Origin: Pseudalkalibacillus salsuginis
Lineage (GTDB): Bacteria > Bacillota > Bacilli > Bacillales > Fictibacillaceae
Length of the DNA: 64,000 bases
Direction of reading: 5' to 3'
Assembly (NCBI RefSeq): GCF_021646685.1
Contig: NZ_JAKJHW010000010.1
Coordinates: forward strand, 1-64,000
Shown: piece after piece, positions 983 to 62,087 of the stretch
Position numbering within the stretch: position 1 is the first letter of the stretch
Layout: every line of letters begins with the position of its first letter
Notes under the pieces: model-generated
Told to the model about the DNA's origin: nothing
Seen by the model: the letters and a program-made list of their open reading frames with translations, nothing else
The model's database searches: none
Made by a program: the position numbers and the translations under genes

Positions 983-2116
983 CTAAGGCTTCAATATGAC
1001 TTTAATGCAGTCGTCTTCATGATCGTTGAATAATTTATAAGCTTTGCTTGCATCGTCCAAAGTGATTTTATGGGTGATAATGTCTGTGGGATCGAATTCT
1101 TTATCCGTGATTTTCTGTAATAACTCGGGCATATAGTGTATGACTGGTGCCTGACCCATCTTAAGATCTATATTCCGTGAGAAAAAGGCCCCTAAAGGAA
1201 AGTTATTGTAGTTACTTCCATAAACTCCCGTAATTTGAAATGTTCCGTATTTTCGTACCGCTTTTGTTGCAATCTGGATCGGGCCTATCGTCCCACCCTG
1301 AATTTTCAATTTTTGCCCAATGAATTCAAGCGGCGATTTCTTTCCATCCATCCCAACACAATCAATCACCACATCTGCCCCGCCTTGTGTGATTTCCTTC
1401 AAATGTTCGCCCATATCATCATATTGGGTAAAATCAAAAACTTCAACACGGTTCTTCTCTTTGGCATGATTTAACCGGTAACTTAAATAATCGACTGCGA
1501 TCACGCGTTTAGCACCTTTCATCCAAGCAAACTTCTGAGCCATCAATCCAACAGGTCCACACCCGAGTACGATGACTGTATCTCCATCTTTGACACCGGC
1601 ATGGTCAACGCTCCAGTAAGCTGTCGGAACGACATCACTCAAAAAGAGTAAGGCTTCATCCTCTAGCTCACAAGATTCCGGGATCACAAATGGAGTGAAG
1701 TTCCCAAAAGGGACTTTTAGGTATTCAGCTTGTCCACCAGGATGATTGCCGAATTTTTCTGTATAACCGAAATAACCTCCAGAATCATAATGAGGGTTTG
1801 AGTGATCACACTGGCTTTCCATTTCCTGCAGGCAATAGAAGCATTGACCGCAGGAGACGTTGAATGGTACGACTACCCTGTCCCCTTTTTTCACTCTTGT
1901 TACTTCGGGTCCAATCTCTTCTACGATACCCATTGGTTCATGACCGATGATATATCCCTCAGGAAGAGGCATATTCCCTTGGTATAAGTGCAAATCTGAT
2001 CCGCAGATAGCAGTTGAAGTGATCCTGACAAGGACATCATCTTTTTTCTCAATTTTCGCATCCTCAACATTTTTGACTGCCACTTTATTTGGTCCTTGAT
2101 AGGTAACTGCTTTCAT
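983..2116 (-). CDS. Zinc-dependent alcohol/formaldehyde dehydrogenase (MDR family)
   Basis: A 377-residue medium-chain dehydrogenase of the formaldehyde-dehydrogenase-like branch (B. subtilis AdhB type). Visible motifs are the catalytic zinc ligands in CGSDLHLYQG and GHEPMG, the four structural-zinc cysteines in CGQCFYCLQEMESQC, and the Rossmann motif GCGPVG in the second half. It should oxidise an alcohol or hemithioacetal with NAD(P); the substrate cannot be read from sequence. The start is the ATG at 2116. A TTG five codons upstream overlaps the Shine-Dalgarno GGAG and is rejected. It is monocistronic, ending at a bidirectional terminator. Confidence 0.92.
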   Translation of the reverse strand: MKAVTYQGPNKVAVKNVEDAKIEKKDDVLVRITSTAICGSDLHLYQGNMPLPEGYIIGHEPMGIVEEIGPEVTRVKKGDRVVVPFNVSCGQCFYCLQEMESQCDHSNPHYDSGGYFGYTEKFGNHPGGQAEYLKVPFGNFTPFVIPESCELEDEALLFLSDVVPTAYWSVDHAGVKDGDTVIVLGCGPVGLMAQKFAWMKGAKRVIAVDYLSYRLNHAKEKNRVEVFDFTQYDDMGEHLKEITQGGADVVIDCVGMDGKKSPLEFIGQKLKIQGGTIGPIQIATKAVRKYGTFQITGVYGSNYNNFPLGAFFSRNIDLKMGQAPVIHYMPELLQKITDKEFDPTDIITHKITLDDASKAYKLFNDHEDDCIKVILKP

Positions 2117-2271
2117 AACAAGACGCTCCAATCTACATTTAGGTTAAAGCGCCTTTATTGTTCATCCTGAAGATGATTTTTATACAGAAAAACCAAAGCT
2201 TCAGTTTTTATAAGTTCGAGGTCACCTTTGTCACGAATACAGTTTAAAGGGTCAATGTTTCATCTGCCCTC

Positions 2272-2427
2272 TTATTTTCCTGACAATGCTTTTTCGATCA
2301 GTACGATCCATTCTGTCTGGGCACGCTTCAGGGTATCAAGATTAACCTCTTGGAACAAGATATCCTCAAATTTTTTGAAGCGTAAACATTCTTCTGCAGT
2401 TAAATAGACCTTTATATCGGCACCCAT
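2272..2427 (-). CDS. Small hypothetical protein (51 aa)
   Basis: Not recognised. The product is predicted to be mostly helical (MGADIKVYLTAEECLRFKKF..., ending IVLIEKALSGK), with no signal peptide, membrane span or metal motif. The ATG at 2427 is preceded by TAGGAGA at good spacing, which is the main evidence that it is a gene; the ORF extends upstream in frame without such a site. It diverges from the HTH gene at 2612 with an AT-rich gap between. Confidence 0.55.
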   Translation of the reverse strand: MGADIKVYLTAEECLRFKKFEDILFQEVNLDTLKRAQTEWIVLIEKALSGK

Positions 2428-2611
2428 AAGTATTCTCCTAACTCTTAATCTGTAGTATAGTGTCACACAATAAATTTCATTTCATATGACTAATCTTTAT
2501 TTTAATCAATTCTTTTATAACTGATTATCATTTATTGTTCCCTATTACTTTTATCCATAAAGTGAGTTTGTTATAATTATAATTAGATTTATAAAGAGGA
2601 GCGTTGTCCTG

Positions 2612-2803
2612 ATGGAAGATAAATATCCTGAAATCATGACGGTTTCACAGGTTGCCGAATATTTGCAGATCAGTGAAATGACAACTTACAAACTCGTACA
2701 GGAAAAGAAAATACCGGGTTTTAAGATCGGCCGTCATTGGCGGGTAAAAAAAGAAGACCTTTCTATTTTTATTGAAAAATTGAAAAATGGTGAAAAAATC
2801 TGA
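2612..2803 (+). CDS. Excisionase-type helix-turn-helix DNA-binding protein
   Basis: A 63-residue MerR/Xis-like winged HTH of the excisionase family. The core is TVSQVAEYLQISEMTTYKLVQEKKIPGFKIGRHWRV (read as two adjoining helices), then KKEDLSIFI. Such proteins bind DNA through the recognition helix containing TTYKLVQ and the wing GRHWRV. The start follows AAAGAGGAG. There is no integrase or phage gene nearby, so it is more likely a small chromosomal regulator than part of an element. Confidence 0.85.
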   Translation: MEDKYPEIMTVSQVAEYLQISEMTTYKLVQEKKIPGFKIGRHWRVKKEDLSIFIEKLKNGEKI

Positions 2804-3326
2804 TCAAAATGATGACTATCGTGTTAAAAAAAACCGTTAAGCGCATCATCCCTGATGAGATGAGCCTGCAACAGCCATTACTTGGAACATATAGCACGTC
2901 ATTTCTTTTCCCTGCCTTAAGTAAAAGGCAGGGTTTTAGAAATTACTTTGTAGCTCAGGGGATGGTAGTCAATTCATTGCAATCAGCTCTTCTTCAATAA
3001 CAATTAGTGAATGTCCTCGATATAGGGTTGGTTAACATGATTGGAACGTTTGATACGAGCCTTAGCTGCGAAACAATTGAACATGTTCCAAATGAAAAAA
3101 CATTCATCAAGAATATATGGAATATTAAAATCTGGAGGAATGTACGAATCGTTGACCATTAACATCGTATATAAACGCCCGTTATTTACGAAAGCAAATC
3201 GGAGTATGAAAGGCTGTCCTCATTGCGATGAGACCGAGTACATACTTGAAAGAACCTGTCAATTTAAGAGTTCCAAATAGGAAAACATCAAATAATCGAG
3301 TAAAAATGAATCATGGAGGATTATAT
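2804..3326. other. Gene-poor gap before the RNase J gene
   Basis: Apart from the hairpin at 2909-2938 nothing could be supported here. Short open frames exist on the plus strand (for example from the ATG at 3037, about 41 codons), but none has a convincing ribosome-binding site or recognisable family. It could contain degraded sequence. Confidence 0.5.
2909..2938 (+). terminator. Rho-independent terminator
   Basis: CCCTGCCT / AGGCAGGG perfect 8-bp stem with an eight-base loop and a TTTT tail. It is downstream of the HTH gene, whose stop is about 100 bases before it. Confidence 0.75.
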
Positions 3327-4988
3327 ATGAATGCCACACAACCTATTAAGTTGTTTGCCCTTGGCGGTCTGGGCGAAATCGGAAAAAACATGTACGGCCT
3401 TCAGTATGAAAATGAAATGATTTTGGTCGATTGCGGGATCAAGTTTCCGGATGTAGAACTACGGGGAATAGATTATGTCATTCCTGATTTCACATTTTTA
3501 GAAAAAAATAAAGATTTGATTAAAGGTGTTTTCATCACACATGGGCATGAAGACCACATAGGATCGATCCCTTTTTTGTTGAAACGAATAAACGTACCTA
3601 TTTATGCTGGTAAATTATCAATTGGATTCATAAAAGATAAATTGCAAGAACATCGTCTTCTTGGCACCTCTATTCTAAAAACAGTTGATGAGAACTCAGT
3701 TGTGGAATTGGGGCATTTCTCAATGCGGTTTATGCGGACAAGTCATAGTATTCCTGATTCCCTGGCAATATGTATAAATACTCCATACGGAAACATTGTC
3801 CATACAGGCGATTTTAAATTCGACCTTACACCTGGTGGAGCCTCCTATGATATCGGCAAGATAGCCGAAATCGGAAATGAAGGTGTTTTCTGTTTGATGT
3901 CAGATAGTACGAACAGTGAAATCCCTGGCTTCTCTTTGTCAGAATCAGTGGTTAAAGCAACGTTATTTGATATCGTTGAACAAATCGAGGGTCGGATTAT
4001 CTTTGCGACCTTTGCCTCTAATATCTATCGATTGCAGCAAGCTATTGAAGCTTCTATCGCATTCAACCGTAAGGTAGCCATCTTCGGTAGAAGTATGGAA
4101 AGATCGATCAGGATCGGTCGGGAGTTGGGTTACATCCGTGCTCCTGAGGATACCTTCATTTCAGGACATGAAATCAATCGATACCCATCTAGTAAAATAA
4201 TGATTTTATGCACAGGGAGTCAAGGGGAACCAATGGCAGCTTTAGGAAGAATTGCGAAAGGTCTTCATCGTCAAATCCAAGTTATACCTGGTGATACAGT
4301 CATCTTTTCCTCCTCCCCTATTCCGGGAAATATAAAGCAGGTTTATAAGCTTATTGATCAGCTGGAGCGGATCGGGGCAGATGTCATACATAATAAAATG
4401 AGTGACATCCATACTTCAGGACATGGAACACAGGAAGAACAAAAATTGATGATCCGTTTATTGAAACCGAAATATTTCGTTCCAATTCATGGTGAATATC
4501 GAATGCTTATCAACCATGTGAAATTGGCAGTTGATTGTGGTGTTGTAAAAGAAAATACCTTTGTATTGGATAATGGAGACATTCTGGAATTAAATGAGGA
4601 AAGTGGAAGGGTATCGGAATCCTTTCCAGCAAATCCGGTTTATGTGGATGGAACAGGAATTGGAGATATTGGGAATATTGTTTTGAGAGATCGACGGATC
4701 CTTTCATTATGCGGAACAGTTGTTGTCACTGTTACCATCGATTCCAAGAATGCCAAGTTACTTTCAGGACCTACACTTGTGTCAAGAGGTTTTGTTTTCA
4801 TGAAAGAATCCGGAGAGTTGTTAAGTGAAGCTGAACGACTTGTTGAAAAGGAAATCAACTCCATGTTGCAAGAAGGAGTCACCAAATGGTCTGAATTGAA
4901 GAAAAAAATTTCCGACCTTCTCACATCTTATTTTTTTGAAGAAACAAAACGGAACCCAATGATTCTCCCAGTCATCATGGAAGTCTGA
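3327..4988 (+). CDS. rnjA: Ribonuclease J (RNase J1-type paralogue)
   Basis: A 553-residue beta-CASP metallo-beta-lactamase nuclease, the usual length for RNase J1. It carries the metal site THGHEDHIG, the DSTNSE and ATFASN loops, the beta-CASP motif with CTGSQGEPMAAL, SSSPIPGN, HTSGH and HGEYRM, and ends with the J1-type NPMILPVIMEV. RNase J degrades and matures RNA, with 5'-3' exonuclease plus endonuclease activity. The ATG at 3327 has TGGAGGA upstream; the longer in-frame ORF is rejected. In Bacillus the main rnjA is followed by rpoY, which is absent here, so this may be a second copy. A remnant of prfC follows 35 bases downstream. Confidence 0.9.
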   Translation: MNATQPIKLFALGGLGEIGKNMYGLQYENEMILVDCGIKFPDVELRGIDYVIPDFTFLEKNKDLIKGVFITHGHEDHIGSIPFLLKRINVPIYAGKLSIGFIKDKLQEHRLLGTSILKTVDENSVVELGHFSMRFMRTSHSIPDSLAICINTPYGNIVHTGDFKFDLTPGGASYDIGKIAEIGNEGVFCLMSDSTNSEIPGFSLSESVVKATLFDIVEQIEGRIIFATFASNIYRLQQAIEASIAFNRKVAIFGRSMERSIRIGRELGYIRAPEDTFISGHEINRYPSSKIMILCTGSQGEPMAALGRIAKGLHRQIQVIPGDTVIFSSSPIPGNIKQVYKLIDQLERIGADVIHNKMSDIHTSGHGTQEEQKLMIRLLKPKYFVPIHGEYRMLINHVKLAVDCGVVKENTFVLDNGDILELNEESGRVSESFPANPVYVDGTGIGDIGNIVLRDRRILSLCGTVVVTVTIDSKNAKLLSGPTLVSRGFVFMKESGELLSEAERLVEKEINSMLQEGVTKWSELKKKISDLLTSYFFEETKRNPMILPVIMEV

Positions 4989-36664: not shown

Positions 36665-36845
36665 AATCTACCGGTTGACACACCCCCTATCCGCGTAGGT
36701 TTTCAGTGCATACAGATGTTGGCAGGTCTCCTGGCTCATGATCATCGTTCACTGCGCCTTCCCGTACGATAAACAGTGGCATTTTGCAGTGAACTCCCAA
36801 TTACAGTGGCGGGACCGCGTTGGAATCTAACCAACTTCCCTTTCA
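36665..36845 (-). promoter_or_regulatory. Cobalamin riboswitch
   Basis: On the minus strand, GGTCCCGCCACTG and later GAGCCAGGAGACCTGCC (B12 box) are diagnostic of the adenosylcobalamin aptamer. The element begins near GGGAAGTTGGTTAGATTCC and ends around the TACGCGGATAGGGGG segment. The adjoining terminator and the btuFCD-cob operon fit it. Confidence 0.95.
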
Positions 36846-37151
36846 AGTCTTCATTCAAAAAGACACCAACTCTGTTATATGTATGAAATTTTCCGCTATG
36901 TTTGATTATACACTACAATCGACTGCTATAGGCAAGGTCTTTCTGATAAATTTCAATATAAAAAGACATCCTCGGACTAAACCTCTTGTAAATTTAATGA
37001 CTTCAATACGATTTATAGATAAAGCTCTTACTAACACAATTATCAAAAGTATCACATATTTATAAAACAAGCTTTTTAAATTGTTATGATCAGTTTATAG
37101 GGGATGCCAAGCACCTCCCCTACCTACCCCCTTCTTATATAGATAAATTGG

Positions 37152-37427: not shown

Positions 37428-37910
37428 TTAAACTTCAGGTGTAGGTGTCGGTTCTCCGAATCCATCCTTGTATTGTTCATCGATCATGGTACGGATTTCT
37501 TTGATCGATTTTCCGTCTTTATATTCCAATATAGATTTCACTGCGATATCCAAGCATGCTTTACACCTAGTAGCATGATCATCCCATACAAGAGAGCCAT
37601 CTTTCTTGTTTTCATGTATGAAACAATCGTAGTTGTTTTTATGGTTGGCTGATTCGCCGCAACCGCAATAGCAAGGGATATTTTCCAGGAGATCTTGATG
37701 CATGGCTGCTGCTCTATATATATTTTGCATATTCTCAGACTTGTCATCCAAAAATGTTGGAATGACTTCCGCCGATTCCGTTTGTTCCCGTAAATCACCG
37801 TTTGATGCTTGATGGACCCCATCATGATCCTTGTGTTCTTCATCAGAACAAGCACCCAAAAGCGGAAGGCTAAGGATAAATACCAAGAATAAACTGCTGT
37901 ACTTTTTCAT
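37428..37910 (-). CDS. PCYCGCG-motif lipoprotein
   Basis: A 160-residue-class lipoprotein (159 codons plus stop in the chosen frame, about 160). The signal MKKYSSLFLVFILSLPLLGAC has lipobox LLGAC; then comes a His/Asp-rich segment (EEHKDHDGVH). The conserved core is ENIPCYCGCGES, C-x-C-x-C, followed by NYDCFIHE and ATRCKACLDIA. Members are secreted Cys-rich proteins of unknown function, suspected to bind metal. The ATG at 37910 is chosen from the signal peptide; its ribosome-binding site is weak and a GTG at 37922 is possible. Confidence 0.85.
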   Translation of the reverse strand: MKKYSSLFLVFILSLPLLGACSDEEHKDHDGVHQASNGDLREQTESAEVIPTFLDDKSENMQNIYRAAAMHQDLLENIPCYCGCGESANHKNNYDCFIHENKKDGSLVWDDHATRCKACLDIAVKSILEYKDGKSIKEIRTMIDEQYKDGFGEPTPTPEV

Positions 37911-38127
37911 TTCCAAGTTCACTCCATTGTGGATTTTCACATCTATCATACCACTATCTTTTCAATAGAGGGGGATTAAAATGTTTTATCTTTGTGACAC
38001 TCGCATTATCATTTTTCAATCCCTTAGATGAGAAATTAAATTCTCTTCCCAAAGATTCCATCTCAATTTATTAAAATACGATATGGATGAAATGGAGTGA
38101 ATAGGTGCCAGTTCACTATCGTTCTAT

Positions 38128-38889
38128 CTAAAAAATTGAAATTAGCTCTTTAGTATAAGGATGGCGTTCCTCACTAAATAAATGATCGCGGTTGAATTGA
38201 TCGACAAGCTTCCCTTCTTTCATGACTATGATCCGTTGGCTCATTTGGCTGACAGCTGCCAGATCATGTGAAATAAACAAGTAAGAGAGATTTAACATTT
38301 CGCGAAGTTCTGTCAATAAAGTAAGCACTGCCCCTTGCGAGATTACATCAAGGCTTGCAGTTGGCTCATCGAGAACAATAATCTCTGGTTCAATGCTGAT
38401 AGCACGGGCAATCGTCACACGTTGACGTTGTCCACCACTTAATTCATGGGGATATCGATCAGCCAGGCCAGCCGGAAGCTCAACGGCTTCAAGAAGCTGC
38501 TTTACAAAATCATCCCTAGAGGTGTAAGAAAAATAGTTTAGATTAAGTTCCTTCCTGTACTGGGCGTAAGGATCAATCAGTGAATCCTTTATTTTAAGCT
38601 TTGGGTTTAAAGCAGCTGATGGATTTTGAAACACGATTTGAATCTTTTTCCGGTAAGGGTGCAACTGACGCTCACTAAGCTTTTCAATTGCTTCATCATT
38701 AAAATAGATCGAGCCACTGTCAATTGGTTCGATCCTCAGCAAGCAACGAGCCAAAGTACTTTTACCACAACCACTTTCACCGACGAGGCCTAGACATTCA
38801 CCCTTGTTCAGTTCAAATGAGAGATTGTTCACCGCTGTTTTTGTTTCTTGGTATGATTTTTTCAGTCGTTCAACAGTAAGCAGACTCAT
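38128..38889 (-). CDS. Peptide/nickel-type ABC transporter ATPase (second subunit)
   Basis: A 253-residue OppF/NikE/CntF-like ATPase: GESGCGKSTLARCLL, LSGGQRQRVTIARAI, IVLDEPTASLD. It ends the five-gene operon and overlaps its partner ATPase by four bases. It energises import with the SBP and permeases upstream. Zur-like boxes at the operon promoter suggest a metal or metal-chelate substrate. Confidence 0.92.
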   Translation of the reverse strand: MSLLTVERLKKSYQETKTAVNNLSFELNKGECLGLVGESGCGKSTLARCLLRIEPIDSGSIYFNDEAIEKLSERQLHPYRKKIQIVFQNPSAALNPKLKIKDSLIDPYAQYRKELNLNYFSYTSRDDFVKQLLEAVELPAGLADRYPHELSGGQRQRVTIARAISIEPEIIVLDEPTASLDVISQGAVLTLLTELREMLNLSYLFISHDLAAVSQMSQRIIVMKEGKLVDQFNRDHLFSEERHPYTKELISIF

Positions 38890-39686
38890 ACGTTTTCAAC
38901 CTCTTTTAACCCAGATGGAAGGTCGTGTCCTATCCTGGGTGCAGCTTGGATCAACTGCTTGGTATATTCATGCTGCGGATGGTCAAGTATACGATGCTTA
39001 CCGCCGGATTCAACGATTTTCCCCTCCTTCATGACAGCTAGACGAGTCCCATAGCGTCTGACATGGCGCCAATCATGGGTGATGAATAAAATCGTACAGC
39101 CTGTTTCCTTTTGCCGCTTTGCAAGCAATTCTAGAATCCTGTGGCCGGAGACGCTGTCAAGTGCTGTGGTTATCTCATCTGCAATCAATAAATCAGGTGA
39201 CAGCAAAAGTGCCATAGCAATCGAAACCCGCTGAAGTTGCCCCCCGCTTAATTGAAAAGGGTATCGATTATACAAAGCTTCATCTAACCCAACTGAGTCA
39301 AGTGCTTCCATTGAATTTATTTGCTGGTCTTTGGTATCGGGAATACCATGGGCTTTCTGATATTCTTCAAAATGTTGTGCGATAGTTCTAAACGGTGTAA
39401 AAGAGCCTTGATAATCTTGGAAAACATAAGACAATTTTTGGCCACGGAATGACCTCATCCGTTTTGGAGATAACGATAGTAAATCTTCATCTTTAAAAAG
39501 AATCTTTCCCTCAACCTGCAAATTAGGTGAAAGCATTCTTCCAATTGCCTGTGAAAGTAAGCTTTTGCCGCTTCCACTTTGTCCAACCAGCGCATACCAT
39601 TCTCCTTCACGAATAGAGAGTGATACATTATCGATAATTTTCTTTTCTTTGCTGCTGATGGATAATTGTTCAATTGATAAAATCAT
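38886..39686 (-). CDS. Peptide/nickel-type ABC transporter ATPase (first subunit)
   Basis: A 266-residue OppD/NikD/CntD-like ATPase: GQSGSGKSLLSQAIG, LSGGQLQRVSIAMAL, LLIADEITTALD. It overlaps both neighbours by four bases. The A-loop and D-loop are intact, so it should be active. Confidence 0.92.
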   Translation of the reverse strand: MILSIEQLSISSKEKKIIDNVSLSIREGEWYALVGQSGSGKSLLSQAIGRMLSPNLQVEGKILFKDEDLLSLSPKRMRSFRGQKLSYVFQDYQGSFTPFRTIAQHFEEYQKAHGIPDTKDQQINSMEALDSVGLDEALYNRYPFQLSGGQLQRVSIAMALLLSPDLLIADEITTALDSVSGHRILELLAKRQKETGCTILFITHDWRHVRRYGTRLAVMKEGKIVESGGKHRILDHPQHEYTKQLIQAAPRIGHDLPSGLKEVENV

Positions 39687-40537
39687 TGCTGCACCTCTTT
39701 CTTCACATCATAATGGTCACGTAAATAATCTCCCAGCATATTCGTTAACAGCACAACAACCATAATAGCTAAACCTGGATATATCATTAATTCAGGTCTT
39801 GACTGAAAATATGGACGAGAATCATTCAGCATTGCCCCCCATTCAGGAACTGGGGGCTGTGCTCCAAGTCCAATGTATGAAAAGGCAGAAATGAGCAAAA
39901 TAATTTTGCCTAGATCAAGACTTGCGAGTACAAAAACATGCCCCATAATGTGAGGAAATAAATGCTTACGCATAATTTCACTTGAAGGTAGGCCATTAAT
40001 ACGGGCAATCAGCACATAATCTTTTTGGGATTCTGATAAAACCGTGCTACGGACAAGACGGGCATAATTTACCCATTTGACCATCACAATAGCAAGCACG
40101 AGGTTACCGATGCCCGGTCCAAGTAGACCACTTAGAACAATGGCGACAATCGTATCCGGAAAGGCTAAAAATCCATCGGCAATCCGCATGAATATCCGGT
40201 CTACCAACCCGCGTTTATACCCGGAAATAAGACCAAAGGGGATCCCGATGATAAGGGCGACAATCAGCGCCAGCAAGCTATAACCGATTGTTTGCTGACC
40301 ACCCAGTAAGAGTCTGGTCAGTACGTCCCGACCGAGCTGATCTGTCCCAAGAGGATGTTGAAGGCTCATATCCTGAAGTCGATGATCGAGATTTGTTAAT
40401 GTGGGATCATGCCGTAAATAAAAAAAAGCGTATACGGCGACTACAAAAACAAAGATAACACATATCACCGCCATAAGCCCTTGCCAACTGTGTTTTTTTA
40501 CCTTTGGCAAACCTATACCTACAGACAATCCTTTCAT
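39683..40537 (-). CDS. Peptide/nickel-type ABC transporter permease (second)
   Basis: A 284-residue DppC/NikC/CntC-type permease. MKGLSVGIGLPKVKKHSWQG leads into the first span; HPLGTDQLGRDVLTRLLLGG is the family signature and GLGAQPPVPEWGAML the EAA-adjacent loop. The ATG at 40537 (GGGAG upstream) overlaps the previous stop as TGATG; the ORF extends 22 codons further without a site. Confidence 0.92.
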   Translation of the reverse strand: MKGLSVGIGLPKVKKHSWQGLMAVICVIFVFVVAVYAFFYLRHDPTLTNLDHRLQDMSLQHPLGTDQLGRDVLTRLLLGGQQTIGYSLLALIVALIIGIPFGLISGYKRGLVDRIFMRIADGFLAFPDTIVAIVLSGLLGPGIGNLVLAIVMVKWVNYARLVRSTVLSESQKDYVLIARINGLPSSEIMRKHLFPHIMGHVFVLASLDLGKIILLISAFSYIGLGAQPPVPEWGAMLNDSRPYFQSRPELMIYPGLAIMVVVLLTNMLGDYLRDHYDVKKEVQQ

Positions 40538-41481
40538 CAGTTGGTCTCCCTTTCTTTTAGTTTCATCTCGGGATTTAAATATCTGTAAGATAAATCCACA
40601 CATGTATTTACAAAGAAAACAATGATCGCCATGATTAAAATATACCCTTGTATAAGGGGATAATCACGTTGACGTATCGCATCAACGACAAGCTTTCCTA
40701 TCCCTGGATACGCAAATAAAACTTCAATCACTACAACACCGCCAATCAGACTTCCTAAACTGACTCCAAATACGGTAATAACAGGAGGAAGGCTGTGTCG
40801 AAATGCATGGGTCAGAAAAATTCGCCTTTCCGACAACCCACGTGCTCTCGCTGCACGGATAAATTCCTGGCTAAGCGAATCCAGCAAGCTGGAACGAAGC
40901 AAACGGACATACACGCTTGAAATGGCCAGACCAAGTGTCAATGAGGGTAAGATCAATGAGACGAAGCCATCCCTCCCCATGGTTGGCAGCCAGTTGAAAC
41001 GTACACCGAATAAATTAATAAAAATAAGGCCAAGCCAAAAACTTGGGATGGCCGCACCAAGAATAGATAGAATTCTGCTCACTTGATCAATCCAGCTATT
41101 ACGATAAAGAGCAGATAGCGATCCTAATGGAATTGATACGACCAGCATGACAACCAACGAACCAAAGGCTAATTCCATAGTGGCAGGCAACCCCATTACA
41201 ATCATATCCATTACAGGTTGGCCAGTGACATAAGACACCCCAAAATCAAGCTGGATAAATTTAAGCAGCCAAAGTCCGTACTGGACGAACAATGGCTTGT
41301 TAAATCCCATTTCCTCTCGTAATTCCTCCACTTGCTCCTGACTAACCGACAGCTCATCAACATTCAAAATTGTCAAAACAGGATCCCCAGGTGCTAGCCG
41401 AACAAACAAAAAACTAACAAATGTGATAAATAACATGAAAAATAGAACTTCAAAGAATTTCCGAGCAAGAATCTGAACCAT
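40537..41481 (-). CDS. Peptide/nickel-type ABC transporter permease (first)
   Basis: A 314-residue DppB/NikB/CntB-type permease with six spans. It shows FVRLAPGDPVLTIL near the N-terminus, EFIRAARARGLSERRIFLTH (EAA loop) and a C-terminal ending in YLNPEMKLKERE. One base separates it from the SBP gene. Confidence 0.92.
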   Translation of the reverse strand: MVQILARKFFEVLFFMLFITFVSFLFVRLAPGDPVLTILNVDELSVSQEQVEELREEMGFNKPLFVQYGLWLLKFIQLDFGVSYVTGQPVMDMIVMGLPATMELAFGSLVVMLVVSIPLGSLSALYRNSWIDQVSRILSILGAAIPSFWLGLIFINLFGVRFNWLPTMGRDGFVSLILPSLTLGLAISSVYVRLLRSSLLDSLSQEFIRAARARGLSERRIFLTHAFRHSLPPVITVFGVSLGSLIGGVVVIEVLFAYPGIGKLVVDAIRQRDYPLIQGYILIMAIIVFFVNTCVDLSYRYLNPEMKLKERETN

Positions 41482-43047
41482 TTACTTCACATCCAGCTCG
41501 TTGGTGATCATGTAATATTCACTTCGTGTCGTCACCCAATTTTTAACTTTGTTTTCGTTATACGCAACAATGGTGGAAGGATGCAAGACAAATGAATTGA
41601 TCATATTGTCATGAACATAATCAGCCGCCTGCTCTGCAAGAACAGCTCGTTCTTCTTGACTGACCGTTTGATTGAGCTTGTCAATGATTTCAGTCAGTTC
41701 AGGCTCATGAGCGCCGCTAAAATTGAGAGCACCAGTAGGGTGATAGGTTGCATTCAAATAATAACCAGCATCACCACGCGGGGCTGTTAAATTACTGTAC
41801 GTAGCCAAATCCCAGCCACGGTTTGTGGCCATATATTCCTCAGGGATGTCGATTTGGCGAATTTTAACATCAATTCCGATCCCTTTTGCGGTCGATTGAA
41901 AAACTTGAGCGATTAATGGCAAGTCTGCTCTTGCGCTATAAGTTAAAAGGGTAAATTCAAGAGGCTCTCCATCTTTTTGCATCACCCCGTTTTCAAGTGA
42001 ATAGCCCGCCTCCTCCAAGTATTTGACAGCTATATCCGTTCCTGATTCCTTCTTCTCATATGATGGGGCAAACGGCAGTGATGGCAAAAATGGCCCAACA
42101 GCAGGTTCAGCATACCCTAAAAGAATTGAATCAACAATCTTCTCGCGGTCAATCAAGGCATCAACAGCGCGACGCACATTGACATCTTGTAAACTTTCGC
42201 GATCCATATTCATTGTCATTTGATGTACACGGAATGTCGCTGTCGATTCAACTTCAATCCCATCTTGTGTTCGTAACGATTCCAAGCTTACCACCTCTGG
42301 ACGATAAACAATATCCACCTGCCCAGATTGAAGCGCAAGCGTACGAGCATTAGCATCCTCATTAAAAGCGAATGTTACTGAATCAAGGTTTGAAGCCCCA
42401 TCCCAATAATCAGCATAGCGCTCGAGTTCAAGCTTGCTTCCAGGTGTAAACGACTTCAATGCAAATGGTCCTGTACCGACCGGTTTGTTGACTATGTCCT
42501 CCTCTGTTACGTCAATGATCGAAACATTTGGATTGACAAGCTCCGAAACGAATTCCGGAAAAGGTTCCTTTGTTGTGATATGTAATGTATAGCCATCTGC
42601 TTCAATCTTATCGATTTTAAGTGCATTTTGAATCGCAACATTCTCTTTCAGGGCTCGTTCAAGGGAGGCTTTCACTGCTTCAGCATCCATTTTATTTCCA
42701 TTTTGAAATGTGACATCTTTACGGAGGTTAATCGTCCAATGTTGCCCATCCTCACCCTCCCAGCTTTCCGCTAGCCATGGGGCAATGGTTAAATTATCTT
42801 CATCTAGTCGGACTAGCGTTTCAGTTATCCCCGCTCTTAACGGTACATAACTTGAATCAACATGAGGATCTAGAGAATTAGTAGAGAAATTATAGAGAAA
42901 GCTGATGTGCTTGTCTTCTGCTTTTTTCTCACCTGTACTTCCTGTTGATTGCGTACAAGCACTTAACAAACTGACACAGACCAATAAAATCGCCATTTTA
43001 ATCCTTTTGAAACTGATGTAGCTTTGCCAATACTTATTTGTTATCAT
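41482..43047 (-). CDS. Nickel/metallophore-type ABC transporter substrate-binding lipoprotein
   Basis: A 521-residue SBP_bac_5 family lipoprotein (NikA/CntA branch). Lipobox LLSAC follows a basic signal peptide. The N-lobe has FLYNFSTNSLDPHVDSSY, RAGITETLVRLDEDNL, then APWLAESWEG and DGQHWTINLRKDVTFQNG. NikA-like proteins bind Ni, or metal-chelate complexes as in CntA-staphylopine. Start ATG 43047 follows GGGGAG; the nine-residue upstream extension is rejected. First gene of the operon, directly behind a promoter with two Zur-like boxes. No opine-metallophore synthase is nearby. Confidence 0.9.
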   Translation of the reverse strand: MITNKYWQSYISFKRIKMAILLVCVSLLSACTQSTGSTGEKKAEDKHISFLYNFSTNSLDPHVDSSYVPLRAGITETLVRLDEDNLTIAPWLAESWEGEDGQHWTINLRKDVTFQNGNKMDAEAVKASLERALKENVAIQNALKIDKIEADGYTLHITTKEPFPEFVSELVNPNVSIIDVTEEDIVNKPVGTGPFALKSFTPGSKLELERYADYWDGASNLDSVTFAFNEDANARTLALQSGQVDIVYRPEVVSLESLRTQDGIEVESTATFRVHQMTMNMDRESLQDVNVRRAVDALIDREKIVDSILLGYAEPAVGPFLPSLPFAPSYEKKESGTDIAVKYLEEAGYSLENGVMQKDGEPLEFTLLTYSARADLPLIAQVFQSTAKGIGIDVKIRQIDIPEEYMATNRGWDLATYSNLTAPRGDAGYYLNATYHPTGALNFSGAHEPELTEIIDKLNQTVSQEERAVLAEQAADYVHDNMINSFVLHPSTIVAYNENKVKNWVTTRSEYYMITNELDVK

Positions 43048-43064: not shown

Positions 43065-43079
43065 GCGTAATCATTCCGA
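43065..43079 (-). promoter_or_regulatory. Zur-like box, proximal
   Basis: On the minus strand TCGGAATGATTACGC matches the Bacillus Zur 7-1-7 consensus TCGTAAT-N-ATTACGA at all but two positions. It lies between the distal box and the SBP ribosome-binding site. Confidence 0.65.
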
Positions 43080-43090
43080 TTTATAGTATA

Positions 43091-43105
43091 TCGTAATCAT
43101 TTCGA
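43091..43105 (-). promoter_or_regulatory. Zur-like box, distal
   Basis: On the minus strand TCGAAATGATTACGA matches TCGTAAT-N-ATTACGA with one difference, and the 5' flank continues as AAA of the longer 9-1-9 form. Centre-to-centre spacing to the proximal box is 26 bp. It begins just downstream of the -10 element. Confidence 0.75.
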
Positions 43106-43112
43106 TTTATAT

Positions 43113-43139
43113 ATTATAGGAATGCTTCTAATTTGACAA
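43113..43139 (-). promoter_or_regulatory. Sigma-A-type promoter of the metal ABC operon
   Basis: On the minus strand TTGTCA (43134-43139) and TATAAT (43113-43118) with a 15-bp spacer, slightly short. Zur-like boxes sit immediately downstream, an arrangement expected for repression by promoter or start-site occlusion. Confidence 0.6.
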
Positions 43140-62066: not shown

Positions 62067-62087
62067 ACAAACCGTAAAGATTACGAT
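62067..62087 (-). promoter_or_regulatory. Zur-like box upstream of COG0523 remnant
   Basis: On the minus strand AAATCGTAATCTTTACGGTTT matches the 9-1-9 Bacillus Zur consensus AAATCGTAAT-N-ATTACGATTT at all but two positions. A TATAAT (62096-62101 on the plus coordinates) lies just upstream, so the box covers the expected transcription start. Confidence 0.8.

Follow-up and report, generated by a model that had tools for sequence, protein, structure and literature searches.

A putatively Zur-repressed operon of Pseudalkalibacillus salsuginis, filed as a nickel transporter, probably imports a zinc chelate made by others

In Staphylococcus aureus, the binding proteins of Opp/NikA permeases that fall in cluster C are described as metal-chelate binders, and CntABCDF is presented as a zincophore importer under Zur and Fur control that takes up zinc with staphylopine and is derepressed without Zur (as given in PMC5666155). 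Opine zincophore clusters with dipeptide-type importers are described in PMC7438024, for example in Paenibacillus mucilaginosus, and the Corynebacterium diphtheriae loci DIP2162-2165 and DIP2125-2128 appear in PMC6711530 as zinc-/Zur-regulated NikA/OppA-like transporters, without a proven metallophore in that account. No report of Zur control of the NikA/Opp5A clade considered here was found in the open-access literature, and an earlier prediction may exist. Older comparative work on zinc regulons, RegPrecise and papers on S. aureus NikA are possible places for it.

The window, a 64 kb stretch of the P. salsuginis genome, contains five overlapping or abutting genes of this transporter class, led by the binding-protein gene. 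We read them as probably encoding an importer, repressed by Zur and annotated as a nickel transporter, for a zinc chelate that others produce. The operon, with a possible sixth gene, is as follows.

41482..43047, minus strand: substrate-binding lipoprotein, Opp5A/NikA family (NF045468, 740 bits, cut-off 600; in-frame alternative start at 43074)
40537..41481, minus strand: permease, Opp2B/NikB type (NF045470, 446 bits, cut-off 350)
39683..40534, minus strand: permease, Opp2C/NikC type (NF045474, 357 bits, cut-off 300; open frame to 40603)
38886..39686, minus strand: ATP-binding protein, NikD/CntD-like (best models below their cut-offs)
38128..38889, minus strand: ATP-binding protein, NikE/DppF-like (best models below their cut-offs)
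37428..37949, minus strand: PCYCGC-motif lipoprotein, possible sixth operon gene (PF13798, 216 bits)

Homology leads to the annotation as nickel uptake that the initial annotation had anticipated: NF045468 is named nickel ABC transporter substrate-binding protein, the NikA/Opp5A-Opp2 nickel family models were matched above their curated cut-offs by the binding protein and both permeases, and the nearest solved structures and nearest named model are called nickel-binding (the 3t66 protein is close in sequence, at 857 bits). Each of the 11 NCBIfam models that the binding protein matched is either of the Opp/Nik/Dpp binding-protein class or SgrR; these models did not place it among the ZnuA-type (cluster A-I) proteins, and the CntA model reached 143 bits against a cut-off of 800. 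Both ATPases matched nickel, Cnt and dipeptide-type models, all below cut-off, and the AlphaFold model of the binding protein (16 rows) was poor, with a mean pLDDT of 71. The PCYCGC-motif lipoprotein gene starts 178 bp after the fifth gene, with no terminator-like site between 38128 and 37949 on the minus strand and a terminator-like stem behind it (37428-37405), and may belong to the operon; the gap carries a weak promoter-like match (38034-38005, 9/12) at the chance level for the region, and a homologue lies near the operon in one of the 80 named loci (the best 80 of 276 relatives from named genomes), L138 (95%). Downstream of the operon, a cobalamin riboswitch (36704-36885, minus strand, 120 bits) precedes genes that by eye resemble cobalamin uptake and synthesis genes.

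The initial annotation had placed two Zur-like boxes, with one and two mismatches and 26 bp apart, immediately after a -10 TATAAT. Both boxes were confirmed on the minus strand by scoring against the 7-1-7 sequence TCGTAATNATTACGA (14 positions), which we take to be the Zur consensus and which was then borne out by zinc genes bearing the same box in the same genome. The promoter region reads as follows.

43134..43139, minus strand: -35 hexamer TTGTCA, in a register kept in relatives
43117..43131, minus strand: possible decayed Zur box, TTAGAAGCATTCCTA, in the promoter spacer (6 of 14 positions mismatched)
43111..43116, minus strand: -10 hexamer TAATAT, in a 17-bp register with TTGTCA that is conserved in relatives
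43091..43105, minus strand: predicted Zur box 1, TCGAAATGATTACGA (1 mismatch of 14; identical in relatives L025 and L138)
43065..43079, minus strand: predicted Zur box 2, TCGGAATGATTACGC (2 mismatches of 14; final base different in L025 and L138)

Boxes 1 and 2 are separated by 26 bp, start to start, and lie 43 and 17 bp before the binding-protein ATG (43047), respectively. The window has three matches at no more than 2 mismatches, whereas shuffled sequence averages 0.30 (three matches turned up in 1 of 100 shuffles), and the third match, at 62072, lies ahead of a broken COG0523 gene. The TATAAT hexamer is present (43118-43113), but its spacing to TTGTCA is 15 bp, and the -10 conserved in relatives is TAATAT at 17 bp; this TTGTCA-17 bp-TAATAT register places box 1 over the expected transcription start. 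The stretch with six mismatches (43131-43117) shares the 26-bp register with both intact boxes and may be a decayed first box, one more 26-bp repeat unit in the window promoter. Fur or PerR control of the operon was rejected, both consensus sequences fitting worse than Zur: the 450 bp upstream held nothing below 3 mismatches to either, and the best match (3 mismatches) lay elsewhere, at -427.

The genome-wide motif scan that had been proposed returned a coherent regulon, with zinc genes behind most of the best sites. Matching WTCGTAATNATTACGAW with up to 3 mismatches, and its reversed pattern as control, gave 164 and 99 places, respectively. At no more than 1 mismatch there were seven places, six upstream of zinc genes or the operon and one inside an unrelated ORF; they belong to an AdcA-ZinT-like gene (by eye), two ZnuA-type genes (PF01297), an S14 paralogue (two sites), the operon and the ORF, and five of the six best sites other than that of the operon precede zinc genes. 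One of the three FUR-family genes in this genome (G000) follows znuB at G000:C7:369175, and we take it to resemble B. subtilis Zur. The zur gene likewise follows znuB in the B. anthracis znu operon (as described in PMC6336718), and the B. subtilis Zur regulon is listed as including znuACB, zinT, yciC and rpsNB (PMC5007448).

Elsewhere in the genome, the pattern matches C15:266234 and C17:24770 lie inside ORFs and were taken as chance, and the Zur-like sites C2:90096, C7:299904, C7:304329, C7:223077 and C15:286783 have by eye no zinc gene beside them; the inspected 2-mismatch sites exclude C15:311622, C15:419617, C18:224994 and C19:234104. At L197 (G000:C17), a 2-mismatch Zur-like box (1751-1765) stands 22 bp before a PF01497 periplasmic-binding-protein gene (1788-3701); the next gene is, by eye, a FecCD-like permease, and the pair may be an additional zinc-chelate importer of a different type. 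At L013/L014 (G000:C15:296785-298364), two Zur boxes precede the S14 paralogue and then a FAD/NAD-binding, lysine-monooxygenase-like gene, homologues of which neighbour the transporter at 5 of the 80 named loci (best 80 of 276).

The strong part of the evidence is that the box is conserved among homologues. It was found within 250 bp in 77 of the 80 named loci (best 80 of 276), 66 of them with a box at no more than 1 mismatch and 58 with two or more boxes, whereas 50 control palindromes of the same letters averaged 0.12 and never exceeded 2 of the 80; a second tally gave 76, because the frame of L135 is broken and its start was misplaced there. In a relatives set of 60 genomes, the window's own among them, the 20 best matches (approximately 41% identity or more, window included) were read, and 18 carry a box at no more than 2 mismatches (17 of the 19 others), L030 and L033 being without one; none of 10 distant paralogues (about 25-31% identity) is boxed. 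A class-wide sample of 200 genomes (own included) yielded 41 with a homologue at 1e-90, and 23 of the 29 loci inspected above 590 bits were boxed. Over all 146 rows, in which six genomes stand twice, boxes accompany 117 of 131 homologues at 590 bits or more and 0 of 15 below, or 111 of 125 (window included) and 0 of 15 once the six repeats are removed. Among the 14 of these 125 distinct homologues that score as unboxed, L135 counts as boxed in the tally of 77, L134 has only 50 bp upstream, L108 carries its boxes ahead of an upstream gene and the boxes of L156 sit more than 300 bp upstream. The available DNA of L030, L166, L167, L169, L170, L175 and both L195 genes has no box at 2 mismatches or fewer, and the boxes of L079 have 3 mismatches.

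A promoter register accompanies the box. The first box of 67 of the 77 boxed named loci (drawn from the best 80 of 276) has a -35-like hexamer 8 bp ahead of it, the next-best offset being shared by 7, and the same 67 have a -10-like hexamer 15 bp after the box start, so that in the relatives the box fills the 17-bp spacer. At no more than 2 mismatches the -10-like hexamer is about equally frequent at other offsets (70 at +15, 67 at +10, 65 at +1), and thus the telling evidence is confined to the -35 offset and, for the -10, to the stricter count at 1 mismatch (41 at +15, 19 at the next-best offset). In the boxed named loci, the next box is spaced at 26 bp in 29 pairs and at 38 bp in 20. That the boxes arose by chance, or serve another Fur-family regulator while the operon answers to something else, is extremely unlikely: the region has no excess of promoter-like matches (19 vs 18.8 in shuffles), as such a reading would have it, but the recurrence in 77 of the 80 named loci (best 80 of 276) against a control maximum of 2, the poorer Fur and PerR fits and the same box before zinc genes all argue against it. 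With the regulon and a zur gene in the same genome, the predicted Zur control of the operon has about as much support as sequence evidence by itself can give.

The Staphylococcus-type NikA homologues differ in this respect. This set comprises eight loci from one genus of the sample with 2.3-2.7 Mb genomes, probably Staphylococcus, and no box was found within 300 bp of any of the eight or of the seven other low-scoring homologues, in which the binding-protein gene may not lead the operon. Five Staphylococcus-type genomes hold 3-7 boxes each at no more than 1 mismatch (0-2 for the reversed-pattern control), and some of seven box sites inspected precede adcA-like and COG0523-like genes. A quick maximum-likelihood tree of 118 rows (midpoint root, long branches flagged, 3 repeats left out, 28 near-copies merged, and the window protein represented by its 96% relative L025) grouped the eight Staphylococcus-type rows together (SH-aLRT 100), beside a 100-row group that holds the window protein (SH-aLRT 91) and has 86 boxed rows; the window protein fell outside the SaNikA-type clade in this tree. 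Box labels must change 13 times on it vs 28 in shuffles, so boxes were lost or gained several times. L182 matched 4ofj at 635 bits and 3t66 at 290 bits. SaNikA presumably serves nickel, as its PDB name has it, and NF045468, as its name suggests, would rest on a Staphylococcus protein whose relatives' promoters are without the Zur switch.

Genes near the operon were also compared. A COG0523 gene (zinc chaperone type) was detected by tblastn in the flanks of 12 of the 80 named loci (best 80 of 276); ten of the 12 have at least 59% identity and lie within 3.4 kb, and a Zur-like box stands directly before the gene in seven of these ten (L064, L065, L068, L083, L107, L108 and L114). The window has a broken copy (62029-61808, minus strand), 76% alike over its first 62 residues before the frame ends early, preceded by a Zur-like box (62072-62086, 2 mismatches); no other PF02492 match in the genome scores as high (62.7 bits), and four weaker ones pass the cut-off (37.1 to 21.4 bits). 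At L108 (Neobacillus sp. DY30), the operon promoter is unboxed and ZnuA-type and COG0523 genes lie upstream in a region with three 2-mismatch Zur-like boxes, the COG0523 gene running in the direction of the operon, as if the operon were under the COG0523 promoter. A MATE-like efflux gene (by eye) follows the operon, approximately 5 kb past the binding-protein start, in 10 of the 80 named loci (best 80 of 276), including L066.

The source of a ligand was approached through opine synthesis. A cntKLM-like opine synthase elsewhere in the genome had been suggested as something to look for, and no cntM-type opine dehydrogenase was found (PF10100, 0 matches in a 99.6% complete genome), nor was there an opine dehydrogenase match in G005, G046 or G052. 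A home-made staphylopine-like ligand is therefore unlikely, and a Cnt system in this genome was rejected on the same ground. Among homologues, 9 of 146 binding-protein genes have an opine dehydrogenase approximately 1.4 kb upstream, in both main branches of the boxed clade, a count limited by the 1.5 kb flank available for most loci outside the named set; one of the 80 named loci (best 80 of 276) has one in its flanks, 9.7 kb away. In a census of 50 of the 80 close-clade genomes, 14 encode a full-length opine dehydrogenase (one with an internal stop) and 36 do not, while a fifteenth match that passed the cut-off is a fragment of 24 positions. Of the same 50, 20 have urease and 30 gave no urease match at 1e-20; 22 have neither enzyme, so the importer is more often an orphan than not. 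It is very unlikely that the operon serves uptake in a Cnt-type system for which the same cell makes the opine metallophore through an unrecognised synthase; the nine adjoining opine dehydrogenases and the 14 genomes with a full-length enzyme speak for such a system, and the missing PF10100 match here, the 36 of 50 close-clade genomes without a full-length enzyme, the single flanking gene among the 80 named loci (best 80 of 276) and the low CntA score speak against it.

The cargo is a separate matter, as conservation of the box shows control and not cargo, and a cell short of zinc could take up cobalt or nickel in its place. The proposal that zinc or a zinc complex is carried, made in the initial annotation, is supported by four results: Staphylococcus-type NikA is unboxed, a COG0523 gene stands near the operon in 10 of the 80 named relatives (best 80 of 276), an opine dehydrogenase adjoins some homologues, and this genome has no urease above the cut-off (one match, 3.6e-4, 22.5 bits) and no NiFe hydrogenase match. 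The nickel-enzyme search covered urease and NiFe hydrogenase, other nickel enzymes and nickel/cobalt importers being outside its scope. The operon might instead be Zur-regulated yet import nickel or cobalt, as replacement metals or through joint chelate entry, with zinc not the main cargo. This we consider unlikely, even though the best-matching family models and the closest solved structures are those of nickel-binding proteins, the cobalamin riboswitch and cobalamin genes lie just downstream, the ureases of 20 of 50 close-clade genomes make nickel use possible there, and the earliest report on S. aureus Cnt described nickel/cobalt import under zinc-depleted conditions (as cited in PMC5666155). 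Against it stand the lack of urease above the cut-off and of NiFe hydrogenase in this genome, the 30 of 50 close-clade genomes without urease at 1e-20 and the eight unboxed Staphylococcus-type homologues; of the 30 neighbour clusters that recur most often around the 80 named loci (best 80 of 276), only one is possibly a cobalamin member, a FecCD/BtuC-like permease at 6 loci.

On the preferred reading, a zinc chelate from outside, ample zinc would keep Zur-Zn dimers on the 26-bp-spaced boxes over the transcription start, blocking transcription; when zinc drops, Zur would release and the lipoprotein, two permeases and two ATPases would be produced. Since the lipoprotein belongs to the Opp/Nik class, a binder of metal chelates, the cargo would most likely be zinc with a small ligand from outside, either an amino-acid complex (zinc-histidine) or an opine-type metallophore of neighbours. 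The orphan state of the importer and the precedents of S. aureus Cnt and the C. diphtheriae loci, as described in PMC5666155 and PMC6711530, are the grounds for placing the ligand outside the cell. Zur binding and repression, zinc as the metal, its chelated form and the outside origin are what we infer.

Members of the boxed clade may, on a more tentative view that we hold with rather less than even confidence, be a widespread group of zinc importers in Bacillaceae and Paenibacillaceae using chelates of others, with a Zur-controlled ancestor, some lines having kept or gained an opine synthase and most being receivers. If the boxed clade imports zinc chelates, many annotations in these families name the wrong metal and metabolic models carry a wrong uptake step. 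Zinc receivers that lack a synthase would then form a common class open to testing, and zincophore uptake would be far commoner than production, a shared good or theft among soil bacteria.

Compared with S. aureus CntABCDF as PMC5666155 describes it, the window operon is alike in being an Opp/Nik-class transporter under zinc control with a presumed chelate cargo, and differs in its CntA score (143 of 800 bits), in having no opine dehydrogenase in its genome and in showing no Fur box below 3 mismatches. The opine clusters of the P. mucilaginosus type, as presented in PMC7438024, resemble those members of the window clade that lie approximately 1.4 kb from an opine dehydrogenase, whereas the window genome is without this gene and 1 of 80 named relatives (best 80 of 276) has one flanking. 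The C. diphtheriae loci belong to another phylum, one of them beside NRPS/PKS genes, and are likened here by the description in PMC6711530 rather than by sequence; they share with the window a NikA/OppA-like importer under Zur and, in that account, a ligand not established. S. aureus NikA/Opp5A with Opp2BCDF is alike in its family models, which the binding protein and both permeases of the window match above cut-off, and the profile of the window protein's clade matches the SaNikA chains at 439 bits; Staphylococcus-type NikA forms its own clade with Zur boxes at 0 of 8 loci, whereas the clade of the window protein is mostly boxed.
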